Assembly (NCBI RefSeq): GCF_024713945.1
Contig: NC_134681.1
Span: 2,728,001-2,792,000, forward strand
DNA from: Dermatophagoides farinae
Taxonomy: Eukaryota > Arthropoda > Arachnida > Sarcoptiformes > Pyroglyphidae
DNA length: 64,000 bases
Reading direction: 5' to 3'
The stretch's first letter is position 1. Every line of letters begins with the position of its first letter. Below, piece by piece: positions 1-53,514 of this stretch. The notes beneath the pieces were generated by a model, which was not told the origin of the DNA, did no database searches, and saw nothing but the letters and a program-made list of their open reading frames with translations. The position numbers were made by a program, and so were the translations under genes.

Positions 1-1529
1 TTTTTCCATCGATTTGTTGTTGTGGTCGCTTCGTTTTCTTTTCTTCCCATATCAATACAATCACATTGGTTTAAGCAATCTTGCATTATGGTCAATAAAA
101 TTATTGAATTTTTTATTTTAAAAAAAGACAAATTCTGAAAATGAAATGAAATAAATCCAAATATTTACACAAAATATTATTGGAACCAAAGATTTCAGCA
201 AAACTATTGCAAAACTAATAATTACCGAATCATAAAGAAAATAAAACTAGAATTGATTCTGATTCTGAATGGATGTGCACCCGAAAGAAATTTTGTTGGT
301 CAGCACCGATAACAACAATCGATCTTGTAATGGGTCTTCAATGTTTGTAACAGTTAGCCAGTTATTTGAAAGAATTTCTTCCGTTCTTACATTTGCTGCA
401 AATTCAGCTTCAGCTAAACTAACTGAAAATCAAATATCTATTTGTTAGAGGCGAAAAATTAAAAAAAATTTGTCGCTGATAATGATAATTTTCTGCTTAA
501 ATCGATCAATTGATGTCCTCAGGAATGGCAAGATTACTTTACTCTACTATTTCCATCTCACAGTAGCATCGAGAAAGCAGAAAGAATGGAAACAATTCCA
601 AATTAAATTTACAAAAAATTTTCCGAGCAACAACTATCACATGATGGAAGAATATAAAACGAATGGAGTGAAAACCCGTCGAACCTATAGCCAATATTGT
701 TCAATAAATAAAATTATCAAATTATTAAATTTTATTTATTCTAGTTTAATTATGCAATAATTGTTTCTTTCCTTTTGTACTATTTTTGGTTTTGTATTTT
801 TCTTAAATACCCTTGTATTTATATGGAGCAAGGGTTTTCTTGTTTTTGTATTAATAAATAAATAATAATAATAAATAATAATAAATAAAATTATCATCAT
901 CATTTCCTTTTATTTTTTGGTTTTCGTTTATTTCGTTTATACAATAATAGTAATAGTAATCATATGAGTTAACTTGCTCTTCTTCTTTTTCTTCATTCTC
1001 TCTGCCAATGTTTGCAACTGCAACTTTCTCAATCAAACAACATCGTATCCAGTCTATCAAGAGCCCAAAAATATATTAAGAATCATAAATTGAAGCGAAA
1101 TCAAATTGATCTTTGTATGTTGTTTGTTTGTGTCCAAGTGTGAGTGGGTAAGCGGGTTCTGGAATGGAGTAAAAGAATTTTCGTTTCACGGAAAAAAAAT
1201 TCGACTAAAGAAAAATTGATAGGAGAAAAAACAGAAAAACGGTAGAGAGAGAGAGATAGAACAAAACTAGACATGCCAAGCAAATAGATCAACAAAAAAG
1301 TGAAGAGATGGGTAGATAATAAAAAACTGAAAACCTCAACTAACCTAGATTGCTGTCCTAGCATACAAAGCAAAAGAGGAAAAATGAAAGAAAATGTCAT
1401 CAATCACCACAATATGGAGCGACCATTTGAAGAACCAAAGAAAAACCGATCCGATCCAAAAAAAACTGGCAAACTCAAGCTAGCCATTTTCATTCGTCAA
1501 AAAGACACCGTAGAAATAGGAATATAAAA
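1..1529. other. Intergenic, no gene seen
   Basis: AT-rich DNA with only short open frames that show no family resemblance, no convincing splice sites and low-complexity composition. A run of A/T triplets near 860-890 and a GA-rich stretch near 1245-1260 are simple-sequence tracts. Nothing here supports a gene. Confidence 0.6.
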
Positions 1530-1538
1530 GAATGGAAC

Positions 1539-1768
1539 GGTTGTAGGTCAAAATCCCGAAAACAAAAACCCCGAAAACCGAAACGCCGAAACCAAATGAC
1601 CGAAAAAAAATTATCCCGAAAACAAAAACCCCGAAAACAAAAACCCCGAAAAAAAATTATCCCGAAAAAAAATTATCCCGAAAACAAAAACCCCGAAAAA
1701 AATTACCCCGAAAACAAAAACCCCGAAAACAAAAACGTAGAAAATGGCTTGTTCCCTTAAACTTTAAA
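1539..1768 (+). repeat. Left terminal inverted repeat
   Basis: The arm starts GGTTGTAGGTC, runs through about a dozen CCGAAAA-type units, and ends in a unique inner segment (GTAGAAAATGGCTTGTTCCC followed by TTAAACTTTAAA). Outer and inner ends match the right arm almost perfectly. The tandem units in the middle differ from the right arm in order and number. Confidence 0.9.
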
Positions 1769-1889
1769 TGAACGGAGATTAACACTATTACTGTGAGAAA
1801 TTTCATGTACCGGTATGTATTCTACGAAAAGAAGTCATTAGATCTAGTTTATTCATCATACAATCACCACAAGTTTTAAATTTTAAATT

Positions 1890-2690
1890 AATATCTAGAT
1901 ATTCATGATGATATTTTTTAATTTGTTGTCAATAATCCATAGATTAAATGAAATTTCATTTTTTGTTATTTGGGCCAAATTTTCTTCAAAATTTATCTTA
2001 AAACCGCCTTCAATCAATTTTCGAACTGAAACCTCCATAGGCCACATCTTTCAATTTGGTTTTGGTTCAATAACAACATTACCAATTTTTCTCTGATGTA
2101 ATTGTATTACCATTAGCCAATTCAAATTCAATCTGTTTATCTTCTTGATCCATAAGTAAATTTTTATCAATCGTTGTATGAGAAGTACATCCAGAATCAA
2201 GTATCCAGATATCTGATAATTTTTCAGCACATTTCAACAACAACGATTTTGCAGCTTTCTTCTCCTTTTTGTTATTTGATTTCGTGAAAATGATGAGCTA
2301 GAAGAAGATTTATCATTAGATGATGTTGATGGAGAAACTTCTGTTTTATTGGAATCAATTTTTCGTTTCATCCAACATCCTTCAACTTTATGTCCAATTT
2401 TATGGCAAAATGGGCATTTTATATTATTTTTAAACTTTTTCTTGAGATTGAGATTTGGCCTTTTCATCATATACAATGAATTCATTCATGATGTTGTTCA
2501 TCATAATTCGATCAGCCAGTTGTTCAAATTTTGAATTTGATCGTAACATGCTCATAATAATCACGCAACGATGTTTATCAGTGTATTTACACGATTCTGA
2601 TTCAATCGATTCAAATTTGACAATAACTGTTTCTAGCCTTGTTTTCAAAGAACTACTTTTATATGAACATGTTGTAGTGAGAATCAAACG
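1890..2690 (-). pseudogene. Decayed Ty1/copia-type gag-protease fragment
   Basis: Read on the minus strand, 2690-2430 encodes a helical gag-like stretch. It is followed in another frame by a CCHC zinc knuckle (Cys-X2-Cys-X4-His-X4-Cys, about 2416-2375), then a Ser/Lys-rich linker, then at about 2205-2190 the sequence WILDSGCTSH, which carries the Asp-Ser-Gly catalytic motif typical of copia-family retropepsins. The order gag, knuckle, protease is that of a copia polyprotein. Reading-frame changes between the pieces and the lack of integrase or reverse transcriptase show it is broken. It lies inside the inverted-repeat element and runs opposite to the + strand, so it is either a nested old insertion or a captured fragment. 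Confidence 0.7.
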
Positions 2691-3029
2691 AATGCAAAAT
2701 GAACAATATTTAATAATAAATAAAGGTTAATCGTAGCTGAATAACGCTACTCTTATAAATATTGCACAAACATAATTGTTAAGTAATTACATTACTACAA
2801 CAGAACATTGGCTGGCTTCAGTAAAATCAGCATTTCGAAGTTGTGGTAAATAGATCAACAGATTTCAAACTATGTTGTAAATTTTGAACCGGAATTTTAG
2901 TTTGTCTTTGCTCAATATCCATAATCGATGTGGTTATGATAATGTTCGGTTGCTAGCTTATATTGTGGACATTCTTCACAGAAAACTGAATAATTGACAT
3001 TTAATTCAGAACTAGACTAATTTTTCCTG

Positions 3030-3195
3030 TGTTGATATCACCACAAACAATAAGCACAACTAAATAATTGACTAGATGAAGTGTATGTTCTTGATTCATG
3101 ATTACCATGGCATTTTGAGCAGACTAGAGCATTTTTACATTTTCCAGTTTATGGTCAAAACGTAGGCATTTGTGACATTGTCCTACAGAAATATT
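3030..3195 (-). pseudogene. Second Cys/His-rich gag-like remnant
   Basis: The minus strand reads GQCHKCLRFDH and, after a frame change, VCSKCHGNHESR followed by a later Cys-X2-Cys. Paired Cys-Cys-His clusters of this type occur in gag proteins of non-LTR and some other retroelements. The piece is short, frameshifted and separate from the copia-like fragment. Its family cannot be settled by eye. Confidence 0.4.
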
Positions 3196-3636
3196 GTTCT
3201 TTGACGTGCAATATTTAATTGGGTACCATTTTTTCGGTCAGTAAAATGAGGGGTTGGTCAGTAATTTTTTAAAAGTTTTGGTCAGTTGAAAACGATCGGT
3301 AAATATATCAATTTTGGTCAGTTTTTCATGTGAATGATCAGTTAATTTAATAAATTGTCCGTTTTCAAACTTGAGGTGAAACATCCAAAATTACAAATTT
3401 CGCTCCAACACGATCTTTTTTGAGAAGGCAAATTGATGTCAATTTATCGTCAATACGATTCATTGACCGAATCAATTAGGATTCGAATTATATAATTTAT
3501 ATTACATTATATTATTATATTATTCATTTATATTATATTATTATCACCATTTGTTCGTTTAAAATTGGAAATTTAAATCCAAATTTCACTTATTTATCTT
3601 TGATTCTATTCAGTTTGGTCGAATAATTCTTTAAGC

Positions 3637-3867
3637 TTTAAAGTTTAAGGGAACAAGCCATTTTCTACGTTTTTGTTTTCGGGGTTTTTGTTTTCGGGAT
3701 AATTTTTTTTCGGGATAATTTTTTTTCGGGGTTTTTGTTTTCGGGATTTTTGTTTTCGGGATAATTTTTTTTCGGGATAATTTTTTTTCGGGGTTTTTGT
3801 TTTCGGTCATTTGGTTTCGGTGTTTCGGTTTTCGGGGTTTTTGTTTTCGGGATTTTGACCTACAACC
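3637..3867 (-). repeat. Right terminal inverted repeat
   Basis: This is the reverse complement of the left arm, with the same outer 20 bp and the same inner segment. The middle contains different numbers of the ACAAAAACC and AAAAAAATTAT unit types, as expected if slippage or unequal exchange acts within the arms. Confidence 0.9.
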
Positions 3868-6800
3868 GAATGGAACAAATAAAGAAACCGAAGAAGAAAA
3901 AACAGCTTTCCTTTACGATGATGATGATGATGTTGGATAACGTCGTCGCATAACACACATTAAGGCATAATCATTTCTATAACGGCCGTAACAAAGTGCT
4001 ACTAGCAGCAGTGAGTTATATATAAATATAAATAAATATATTATAAATATAAATGTTTTTCCCTTTCTCAATAAAAATCATTTCATTTCAAAGCACATTA
4101 TTGCATACAACAATCAAATTGATGCCACATAATCGTCTTTTTTTGGTTTCAACGTCAATGCGCCGTCGTCATGGTATTTTTTTCATCATTTTTGATCTGG
4201 TTATCATTGTTGCGTGTATTTTTTCCATGTTCGTTTATTGCCATGTCTTCAATGTCGAATGTGTGTTTCGGGTTTGATTTTCAAATCAAGTGAAAAACAA
4301 AGAAAATTCATAATCTATTGGACACTGATTAGAATGTGAAAAAAATGACGCGAAACCTATTTATTTATTAAGATTCGAAAATCTGATACAAATGAAAATT
4401 GACAATAACTCAACAAATAGACCAAACATTACATAATTTGACCTTTCAACGTTCTGCAACACACACAAACACAATTTAGAAGCTAGAATGGAAAAGAAAT
4501 TTTCAACAGTTAATTCTTGCCACTAACCATTAAGAAGAAGTGAACATGAAAAACAAATATTCATTCATTTGCTTTGAATTCAAACGGTTTGTTTGTTGAT
4601 TTTATTTTTTGAGAATCAATACAACCCCGATCACCAAGTTACACAAACAAACAAAACTTTAAACAAGAAAACAACAAAGAACAAACTTTTTTTTCTGGTA
4701 AAAAAGATACGGAAATATTGAATTGACAAAGCAGTGTGAAGATATGAGAAACAACTAAAGAATCCGATCATGTAGGATATGGGCCTCGTTCATTATGGAA
4801 TTCGCCTCATTCTTTATCTAGCCAATTTATCTATTTATCTATTTATATAATAATAATATCTTTAAGTAAATAAAGCAGCAAAGACCAGTATTGAATAAGT
4901 TTGAGAAAAAATGTCATCATTGTTGACTTACATGATGTTTGAATGCCGTTTTTTCTAGTTTGTTTGTTTTACTCTCCATGTTCCTGTAAAAAATCTATAA
5001 ACAGACTGTCTCTGTCCGTGTATGGGTGGGTGCAGGTTCATTTGATTGTTAATTGGTTATTGTTTTTTGGTCATATTAGATGTAATAATGATCATATCAA
5101 TGGCCACCAGAATAATAGCAATTCAACATGCGTTACATGCACTTAAACACAAGAAAAAATTTCTAATCACTCAATAAACAAATTAATAGACAAATCAAAT
5201 GAATGAACGAATGAATGAATGGATGGATGGATGGAAAAATGGTATAACAACATGACAAGAAAAAAGTCGTCGACATTGCTTTGTTTTTCATCCATAGCAT
5301 CATCATAGACGGAAAAGTATCAAATGCAACTAAAATTTTCTATTGTTTGATAATTCCAATGTCCGAGATCAATGGATGTGTTCTATATTTGCTGCACGTT
5401 GATTGACATTCAAACAACATGGCCAGAATCTTAATTGAATTATCATGTTCATTGTTTTGTTTTTTCTTTGTTCATTCAATTGATTAAATATTCAATGATT
5501 TTTTTCATTCCAGAAAAACACTATATCGCCATCTTGGATTCGATAGTCGAATGAAAAGATAGCTAAACCAATTATTGACAATTTAAAAAAACAATAAAAA
5601 GTTGTCGGATTTCCTGTAAAAGTTTGTTGGTTCGACACAACAACGACACTCATACACTTAAACTACCTGGTTAAAAATTTGAAAAATACTTGATCGATTA
5701 AGAGGAAAAAATGAATGGCATTGACACCTACCTTTCATAAAAGACTGGTGTATAGTGATTAGTAAAACCAAAATCATTCGTTATTCAAACACTGGAACTA
5801 AACAAATGTTTAATCAATCAATTCTTCACTGAAAAACAAACAGACACGCACACACACATTAAGCTAAAACAAGCGATGGATGGTAATTAGTTGTTGTGAA
5901 TTTGAACAAAAGAAACAACAAGCATTTTATAATTTTATAATTTATTTGAAAAAATCAGTCAAAATCAAAATCAAAATCAAAGTCATAAACATGATAATAA
6001 ACATAATGATGATGCAAACGAAATTCGGCCAATACATGACATGTTCTAATTCTAATTTATGTCTGATAATCATGAATAGTGTATGATAACGGTAATTATA
6101 AAATGATGAATCGCCGTCACATTTTATCTACGTCAATCCTAAATATATCATGAATGTGGGTTGTTTATGGTTTTTTTTTATTTTAAATTTTATAACCATT
6201 CGAATCAAATCTTTTGAAACAAAAAACCTCACTCATAAGCCATAAGTCCTAATTTAAAATAATTTTTCTTATCAATTTAGGTGATTTCTGTCTATCAAAT
6301 TACTAACAATAACAATAATAATTCTTTTCCGTATTACAATCACAGTTTTCATTGATAGTTTTGTCAAACAAAATTGCAATAAAATTCTTGGTTTATTGTG
6401 AAGGGACAAGTAAAAATTACAGCACATTTATTACGACTATATCATCATCATTGTCATTTCATTTTATTTGGTAATTTTGTTGATAAAGTTGAATCATATC
6501 ATATATTTTTTGGTACGAGTTATGAGCCAAGAAATAAATAATTAAGCAAAAAAACGAAGGTAAAATCAAAGATGGAAACCATATAACGTTAAACAACCTG
6601 GATAAAGCAAAATTTCAATGAAAATGAAAAGGTTAAGTATTCACTTGAAAAATGTCATATGGTAATTGATGATTGTTGTCTTTGTTGTCGTTATCAATGT
6701 GGATGAAAGTTGAATGGCAATATGATTTTTCATTTCCTTAACATCGACATCATCATTATACATTATGAGTGATTGCTCGTTATATTCAATGGCAAATGTT

Positions 6801-10405: not shown

Positions 10406-10504
10406 TGTAAATTCATGGGAAAAATCATAGATTCATAGATTCAACATTGTCACTTGATCACTTGAATATTGAATAATAGAAACCATTAAAAGACAAAAGA
10501 AAAA

Positions 10505-10897
10505 ATGGCAATACATCGTTTATCAGCATCATTGTTGTTGTTGATCGTTGCATCAATGGCCATCGCTGCAAGTATTGTGGGCGATTTCCGTAAAATGGAC
10601 GTGTATGATGAACATCTCCGTCAATCATTATCACACTTGGAACGACAAATGGATAATCGACTCAACATGAACACCATACATCGTATCGCTAAGATTCGTC
10701 AGGCTGAATATCAAATTGTCTCTGGCATCAAATATCGGGCAACATTTGAATTTGGCGAAACAGATTGCCTTAAATCTGATCATCGGGATATTGAATCCTG
10801 TCAATTCACCGGTTACAACATGATTTGTCATGCCATCACTTTGGAAAAAGCATGGCTTAAACAAAGTTCACTTGTCGAATTTTTTTGCGATAATTAA
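10505..10897 (+). CDS. Secreted cystatin-family cysteine protease inhibitor
   Basis: A 130-residue single-exon gene. Residues 1 to about 22 form a hydrophobic signal peptide, so the product is predicted to be secreted. The mature part carries the cystatin hallmark Gln-X-Val-X-Gly as QIVSG (70-74), an N-terminal Gly (26) of the kind that enters the protease cleft, and a Trp (117) where the second binding hairpin usually has Pro-Trp; here it is Ala-Trp. Four cysteines (88, 99, 108, 128) are spaced like the two disulfides of type-2 cystatins. Cystatins block papain-like proteases (cathepsins B, L and relatives) by wedging three loops into the active site. The Met at 10505 sits directly before the signal peptide after an A-rich leader, and a poly(A) signal follows 35 bp after the stop. 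Likely roles are control of digestive or host-derived cysteine proteases (inference). Family call is firm, target unknown. Confidence 0.88.
   Translation: MAIHRLSASLLLLIVASMAIAASIVGDFRKMDVYDEHLRQSLSHLERQMDNRLNMNTIHRIAKIRQAEYQIVSGIKYRATFEFGETDCLKSDHRDIESCQFTGYNMICHAITLEKAWLKQSSLVEFFCDN

Positions 10898-53246: not shown

Positions 53247-53514
<268 letters not shown>

Follow-up and report, generated by a model that had tools for sequence, protein, structure and literature searches.

Foldback transposons are long known from Drosophila, where FB/FB-NOF elements have foldback arms of short tandem repeats and 9-bp target-site duplications (TSDs). Comparable architectures occur in other animals. In the mosquito Aedes aegypti, the Mutator-like elements (MULEs) Muta1 and Muta5 have terminal inverted repeats (TIRs) of 145 and 151 bp with nine subterminal tandem repeats of 12 and 15 bp, and Muta1 is termed a type 2 foldback (PMC5225508; this and the other papers below, except the Dermatophagoides farinae genome paper, are cited from parts of their text). 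The same source gives 8–9 bp TSDs for all 14 Aedes MULE families and subterminal tandem repeats of 9–15 bp for 10 of the 12 with long TIRs, and describes MULE derivatives with heterogeneous fillings, host gene fragments included. Here, we describe a foldback-like element at positions 1539–3867 of a 64,000-nt window from the house dust mite D. farinae (C5:2728001-2792000; C1, C2 and so on are assembly contigs, and L-numbers are extracted loci). It belongs to a real, recently mobile family of foldback-like DNA transposons, a new family but one of a known kind. The original prediction, made from the window sequence alone, had called foldbacks a mainly Drosophila phenomenon; that is too narrow, as Muta1/Muta5 (PMC5225508) and the nematode element Tm1 (PMC3169594) are close architectural matches.

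The window copy is 2329 bp long. Its ends read GGTTGTAGGTCAAAA; GGTTGTAGGTCAAAATCCCG opens the element and the reverse complement closes it, and the perfect 9-bp duplication GAATGGAAC flanks it at 1530–1538 and 3868–3876 (strand-neutral features, supported by the window sequence and by flank comparison). The outermost perfect inverted repeat is 46 bp, and when the two halves of 1300–4100 are compared, exact inverted matches reach 70 bp, whereas none of 100 dinucleotide shuffles exceeded 17. Each arm of ∼230 bp consists of tandem repeats with a period of 15 and additional higher-order periods, which gives the long inverted arms of short tandem repeats by which foldbacks are recognized. The left arm (1539–1768, forward strand) has the terminal motif GGTTGTAGGTCAAAATC, 13 CCGAAA-headed units mostly of 15 or 16 bp, and the inner border AAAATGGCTTGTTCCCTTAAACTTTAAA; the right arm (3637–3867, reverse strand) is inverted and also has 13 units, in an order unlike that of the left. 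Arms have between 2 and 14 units in the copies described below, a variability usual among foldbacks (20 of 22 arms were parsed; in one arm each of L015 and L018 the inner border was not located). The difference in unit-type order between the two arms is kept in the eight main copies, with L013 partly mixed, which indicates descent from one composite element and not homogenization of the arms. Genome-wide, a 23-base unit pattern gave 102 matches at up to two mismatches versus none for its control; the matches listed lie in the inverted pairs described below or in the single fragments on C3 and C2. A 48-bp arm piece, 100% identical, is also found inside a GA microsatellite (L021 3001–3048; C1:5935737-5935784). 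RNA folding of 150-base pieces of both arms produced no stable within-arm fold, and the folds were weaker than those of shuffles.

A genome search with 1539–1768 returned at least 27 matches: 22 form 11 inverted pairs of 2.05–3.14 kb on seven contigs, and five are single fragments. All 11 pairs have the same boundary, to the base, at both ends, and ten carry a perfect 9-bp TSD; in the remaining one, L011, the duplication is 8 bp long and lies in an A tract. These are dispersed copies with constant ends and TSDs, as expected on structural grounds of a foldback family. When flanks were cross-paired between copies, 0 of 110 combinations were identical (mean 3.3 of 9 positions matching), and a copy's own flanks shifted outward by 12–200 bases matched at 1–7 of 9 positions. 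The 15-base end has 21 exact matches in the genome (20 in pairs and one in the single fragment L019) and 12 with one mismatch (two in pairs, one in the fragment L020, nine in neither), compared to six in all for the reversed-pattern control; T replaces C at the eleventh base in 2 of the 22 paired ends, one belonging to L014 and the other to L015. None of the nine unassigned one-mismatch ends (L029–L037, 2 kb on each side) has a partner end that shows a 9-bp duplication, even with one mismatch allowed, and none of the five single arm fragments (L019–L023) has a partner end within 3 kb on each side. L020 is a single-ended, diverged copy. The original prediction of a non-autonomous, foldback-like element with an intact 9-bp TSD and boundaries fixed to the base thus holds, as does its description of tandem-repeat arms with identical outer ends (period-15 arrays and the 46-bp perfect terminal inversion). 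The genome search that it proposed shows that the arms are not unique, and that boundary and TSD length are constant in the other copies apart from the 8 bp of L011.

Six copies (the window copy, L009, L010, L012, L014, and L016) differ pairwise by only 3–16 substitutions over ∼2.05–2.11 kb of shared sequence, a pairwise identity of 99.23–99.86% with gaps excluded, which argues for recent mobility. By BLAST, with gaps counted, the same pairs are 96.3–99.3% identical; small indels, partly in the arms, are therefore the larger difference among them. L012 shares only its first 2.1 kb with the others, its remainder being different. L013 is 98.3–98.5% identical to the six in global alignment. L011 is 92.1–92.5% identical globally, a value lowered by a stretch without counterpart, its matching blocks being 95–100% identical. 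L018 has 828 bp of filling in common with the main group, while L015 and L017 have the family's arms and subterminal DNA around different fillings.

Judged by sequence resemblance, the interiors are mosaics of other mobile elements, with copia-type, gag-like, LTR-like (long terminal repeat-like), second-repeat, and piggyBac material and a piece of a SET-domain gene. In the window copy, the subterminal stretch beside the left arm (1769–1829, forward strand) is also present in L015 and L018. The AT-rich subterminal region beside the right arm (3435–3636, reverse strand) has an arm-side part common to L017 and L020, which is therefore probably the family's own sequence. Further inward from the left lies a copia-type gag/protease/pre-integrase fragment with stops (1830–2669, reverse strand; outer limit 1830 and copia label set by eye). 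Its protease piece matches Pfam Pol_BBD at E = 5.8e-6, exactly at the cut-off of 27 bits, and the sole Pfam match of its zinc-knuckle piece is a sub-threshold C2H2 finger. Outside the family, the longest relative of this fragment lies on C3 and matches most of its length (1947–2669) at 67% identity; C7 has a 96-bp stretch at 96% identity. Adjoining it is a nested, LTR-like insert of 133 bp (TGTTG...CAACA; 2670–2802, strand-neutral) with the 5-bp duplication GAACA. Both of its ends are present in six of the eight main copies and one end in L011, with the uninterrupted site in L013 and L018, a distribution that indicates that the insert travelled with the element. The queried part has 14 other matches in the genome over 53–71 bp, 13 with the same start base; the insert is probably a member of a short LTR family.

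The captured fragment continues past this insert (2803–2911, reverse strand; assigned by position and by eye) and is followed by a gag-like open reading frame (ORF) fragment with CCHC-type knuckles (2912–3434, reverse strand), interrupted by a second dispersed repeat. Its segments 2912–3216 and 3366–3434 are 83% and 91% identical to L045, whose 398-aa open frame has CCHC-type knuckles and no Pfam match; by eye, the gag-like fragment looks like ORF1 of a long interspersed nuclear element. The interrupting piece (3211–3369, forward strand) has the end GGTACCATTTTTTCGGTCAGTA, at 3222, and GGTCAGT repeats. Further pieces with a GGTACCATTTTTTCGGTCAGTA-like end and GGTCAGT repeats are found at L038 4598–4946, L039 4184–4408, L040 3985–4750, L041 4556–4785, and L043 4446–4572. 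In L040, the GGTCAGT repeats occur in both orientations, ∼0.6 kb apart; this orientation, with no TSD established, suggests that the second repeat is another, older foldback-like family. An inverted-repeat search at three of its loci found none in L038 and mostly simple-repeat pairs, without GGTCAGT arms, in L039 and L040.

Other copies have acquired other fillings. In L018, the extra sequence includes a piece of piggyBac at C6:2883039-2883305 and one of an integrase, whose rve score of 21.9 bits falls short of the cut-off. L017 contains piggyBac pieces at C1:1076647-1077501 (PF13843 E = 7.6e-26 for one piece), from a gene that lacks the first 74 domain positions and is spread over more than one frame. 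Elsewhere in the genome, two piggyBac domains of equal score lie in frames without interruption, 527 and 562 aa long (C2:4364159-4365220 and C5:3037117-3038178). L015 holds a copy of DNA that starts 427 bp past its own right end (90.4% identity, 1017-bp alignment) and that includes a 145-bp stretch 77% identical to a SET-domain gene on C5 (L042). Pack-TIR elements are defined by a filling of non-transposon sequence with a traceable parent; L015 has this own-flank copy with its SET-like stretch, and the main filling of the family is transposon-derived. Local capture of the L015 type is expected under the gap-filling model of animal Pack-TIRs (PMC8277862). We considered L015 as a possible MULE remnant and rejected this: two of its peptides have no Pfam match, the stretch that matches the first lies in the SET-domain gene (L042), and the second has genome matches only at L015 and the neighboring flank copy.

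We think it likely that the element is a non-autonomous, foldback-like cut-and-paste DNA transposon mobilized in trans by a MULE transposase, its interior being refilled by template-switching repair. TSD length, the GG start, and the design of the arms together point to a Mutator-type enzyme. The TSDs fall within the 8–11 bp range of MULEs (PMC6446971), and two of the first three TIR bases (GGT) are G/C, a weak criterion that agrees with the trend in MULE TIRs (PMC13359780). A MULE transposase of the kind known from Aedes Muta and Meloidogyne Tm1 would bind the terminal motif and the repeated units, excise the element, and insert it where the target is cut with a stagger of 9, or at times 8, bp. 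The interior would be free to change, and template-switching repair between the retained arms would account for the copia-type, gag-like, piggyBac, and SET-gene fragments.

Several observations weigh against this interpretation. As the original prediction had noted for the window copy, there is no transposase inside: no stop-free frame in the 11 copies exceeds 163 aa, the length reached by a retroelement piece in L018, and no intact transposase frame is among them. The search it had advised for a copy with a MULE or other transposase turned up only the piggyBac pieces of L017 and L018. Neither the 11 copies nor the other end matches in the assembly include a MULE gene with the family ends; we therefore claim resemblance to Mutator-type foldbacks and not membership in the superfamily. 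The statement of the original prediction that an autonomous partner must exist goes further than the assembly, where no copy combines these ends with an intact transposase; such a partner is something that we infer. The MULE family search gave a single, sub-threshold match (26.5 bits versus a cut-off of 27.6), located in a degenerate FLYWCH pair on C3 (L048) without foldback ends. There, a FLYWCH-bearing frame is present in two partial copies, one with stops, beside a Pao-type retroelement fragment. Four of nine FLYWCH matches are above cut-off: the L048 pair and frames on C1 (464 of 594 aa read) and C8, the latter two looking like host genes by eye. A PDB search with one L048 frame found no match. 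In L048 4393–5833 (C3:1396392-1397832), a frame encoding a LEM-3-like GIY-YIG domain (E = 1.3e-17) comes after the degenerate FLYWCH/MULE-like frames. These domain searches were run exon by exon with prokaryotic named controls, and the FLYWCH control matched nowhere; with single-exon searches and no arthropod positive control, sensitivity for an arthropod MULE is not established and an intact one could have been missed. It may also be that this strain lacks an intact MULE. The copies are very recent and yet no enzyme is visible, a notable contrast.

Astigmatid mites might have a foldback lineage moved by a transposase not recognizable as a MULE, or by one lost so recently that it left near-identical orphans, the arms serving as a refillable shell with a preference for other transposons; we regard this as an outside chance. 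Also improbable, in our estimation, is that a DDE transposase other than a MULE, of the hAT type or of the P type as in Galileo, mobilizes the element and that its foldback arms arose independently. Both hAT and P transposons make TSDs of ∼8 bp, as against 9 bp in 10 of the 11 copies and 8 bp in only one. Galileo does provide an example of foldback arms within the P superfamily (PMC3169594), and hAT dimerization domains occur at five places in the genome, though none of the five lies inside the 11 copies. The one P-type domain searched had no match, which weighs little because the search had no positive control.

The piggyBac pieces between the arms of 2 of the 11 copies, the L017 gene and the L018 piece, raise the question of whether piggyBac transposase is the family's own enzyme. 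This we rejected as very improbable: piggyBac makes TTAA duplications, and such a duplication flanks none of the 11 copies, whose TSDs are 9 bp (one 8 bp); the L017 gene is partial as well as broken over frames, and the two piggyBac domains in open frames are elsewhere in the genome. Nor do the copies look like segmental duplications or assembly products, an idea that the local duplicate of its own flank in L015 might invite. Ten different 9-bp flanks and one of 8 bp, each exactly duplicated, on seven contigs and with no match among the 110 cross pairings, make it barely credible. We accordingly retain the non-autonomous transposon served by a MULE in trans as the favored reading.

The family adds a well-bounded, recently mobile foldback to what is known of Astigmata. 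Among the matches listed in our literature searches (foldback and mite; D. farinae and MULE), no title concerns a mite foldback. Table 1 of a 2026 survey of arthropod MULEs, which lists orders with MULEs, has no Astigmata row (PMC13359780), and the main text of the D. farinae genome paper contains neither of the words foldback and Mutator, its table assigning 0.09% of the genome to DNA transposons (PMC11074847). With copies so nearly identical, other assemblies should be easy to examine for empty sites, and as no transposase is visible, the question arises of what moved the recent ones. Loss of PIWI-interacting RNAs has been reported for house dust mites (PMC5805368); any search for small-RNA control could therefore naturally begin with their long inverted-repeat transposons. 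Elsewhere in the window, we note a 135-aa frame with a signal-like start and a cystatin-type resemblance by eye (10490–10897) and a long TC dinucleotide array of ∼130 copies with a 98% match (53250–53509).

Several described systems bear comparison with the mite family. The Rehavkus group shares 9-bp TSDs, TIRs of 26–400 bp, and minisatellite character, but has a PHD-finger transposase (PMC6446971), of which we saw none in the mite family, no search having been aimed at it. Tetris of Drosophila virilis likewise has tandem-repeat foldback arms, TSDs of 8–10 bp, and no autonomous copy found in the account cited, but its units are ∼220 bp and its TIRs reach 1.7 kb (PMC4079207). A NOF-like gene, as in FB-NOF, was not recognized in the mite family, no comparison by sequence having been made. 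Animal Pack-TIRs, including Ssk-FB4, also capture foreign sequence between TIR arms and amplify it as a unit, with local capture in single copies; they are defined by non-transposon sequence, whereas the mite fillings are mainly transposons plus one host-gene-like piece in L015 (PMC8277862).

Tm1, a Mutator/foldback element of Meloidogyne, is a close match in architecture, with mostly 9-bp TSDs, tandem TIR units of 13–15 bp in variable number, and mostly non-autonomous copies (PMC3169594). It differs in unit sequence and in its asymmetric outer motifs (CGGTTAA and CCTACCC, versus GGTTGTAGG at both ends of the mite element), and a Phantom-type transposase is known from one M. incognita copy; M. 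hapla, as far as that account goes, is also without an intact transposase. M. hapla Tm1 and Tetris are thus precedents for foldbacks without a visible partner. Muta1 and Muta5 resemble the mite family in their long TIRs, composed of a short terminal motif and, subterminally, tandem repeats of 12 or 15 bp, in TSDs of 8–9 bp, and in non-autonomous derivatives that vary in unit number and are heterogeneous in filling, a likeness of architecture; they differ in having transposase-encoding members, Muta1 being active in yeast, where none was found in the mite family (PMC5225508). By this analogy, the mite family matches in architecture the Mutator-type foldbacks represented by Aedes Muta and Meloidogyne Tm1.

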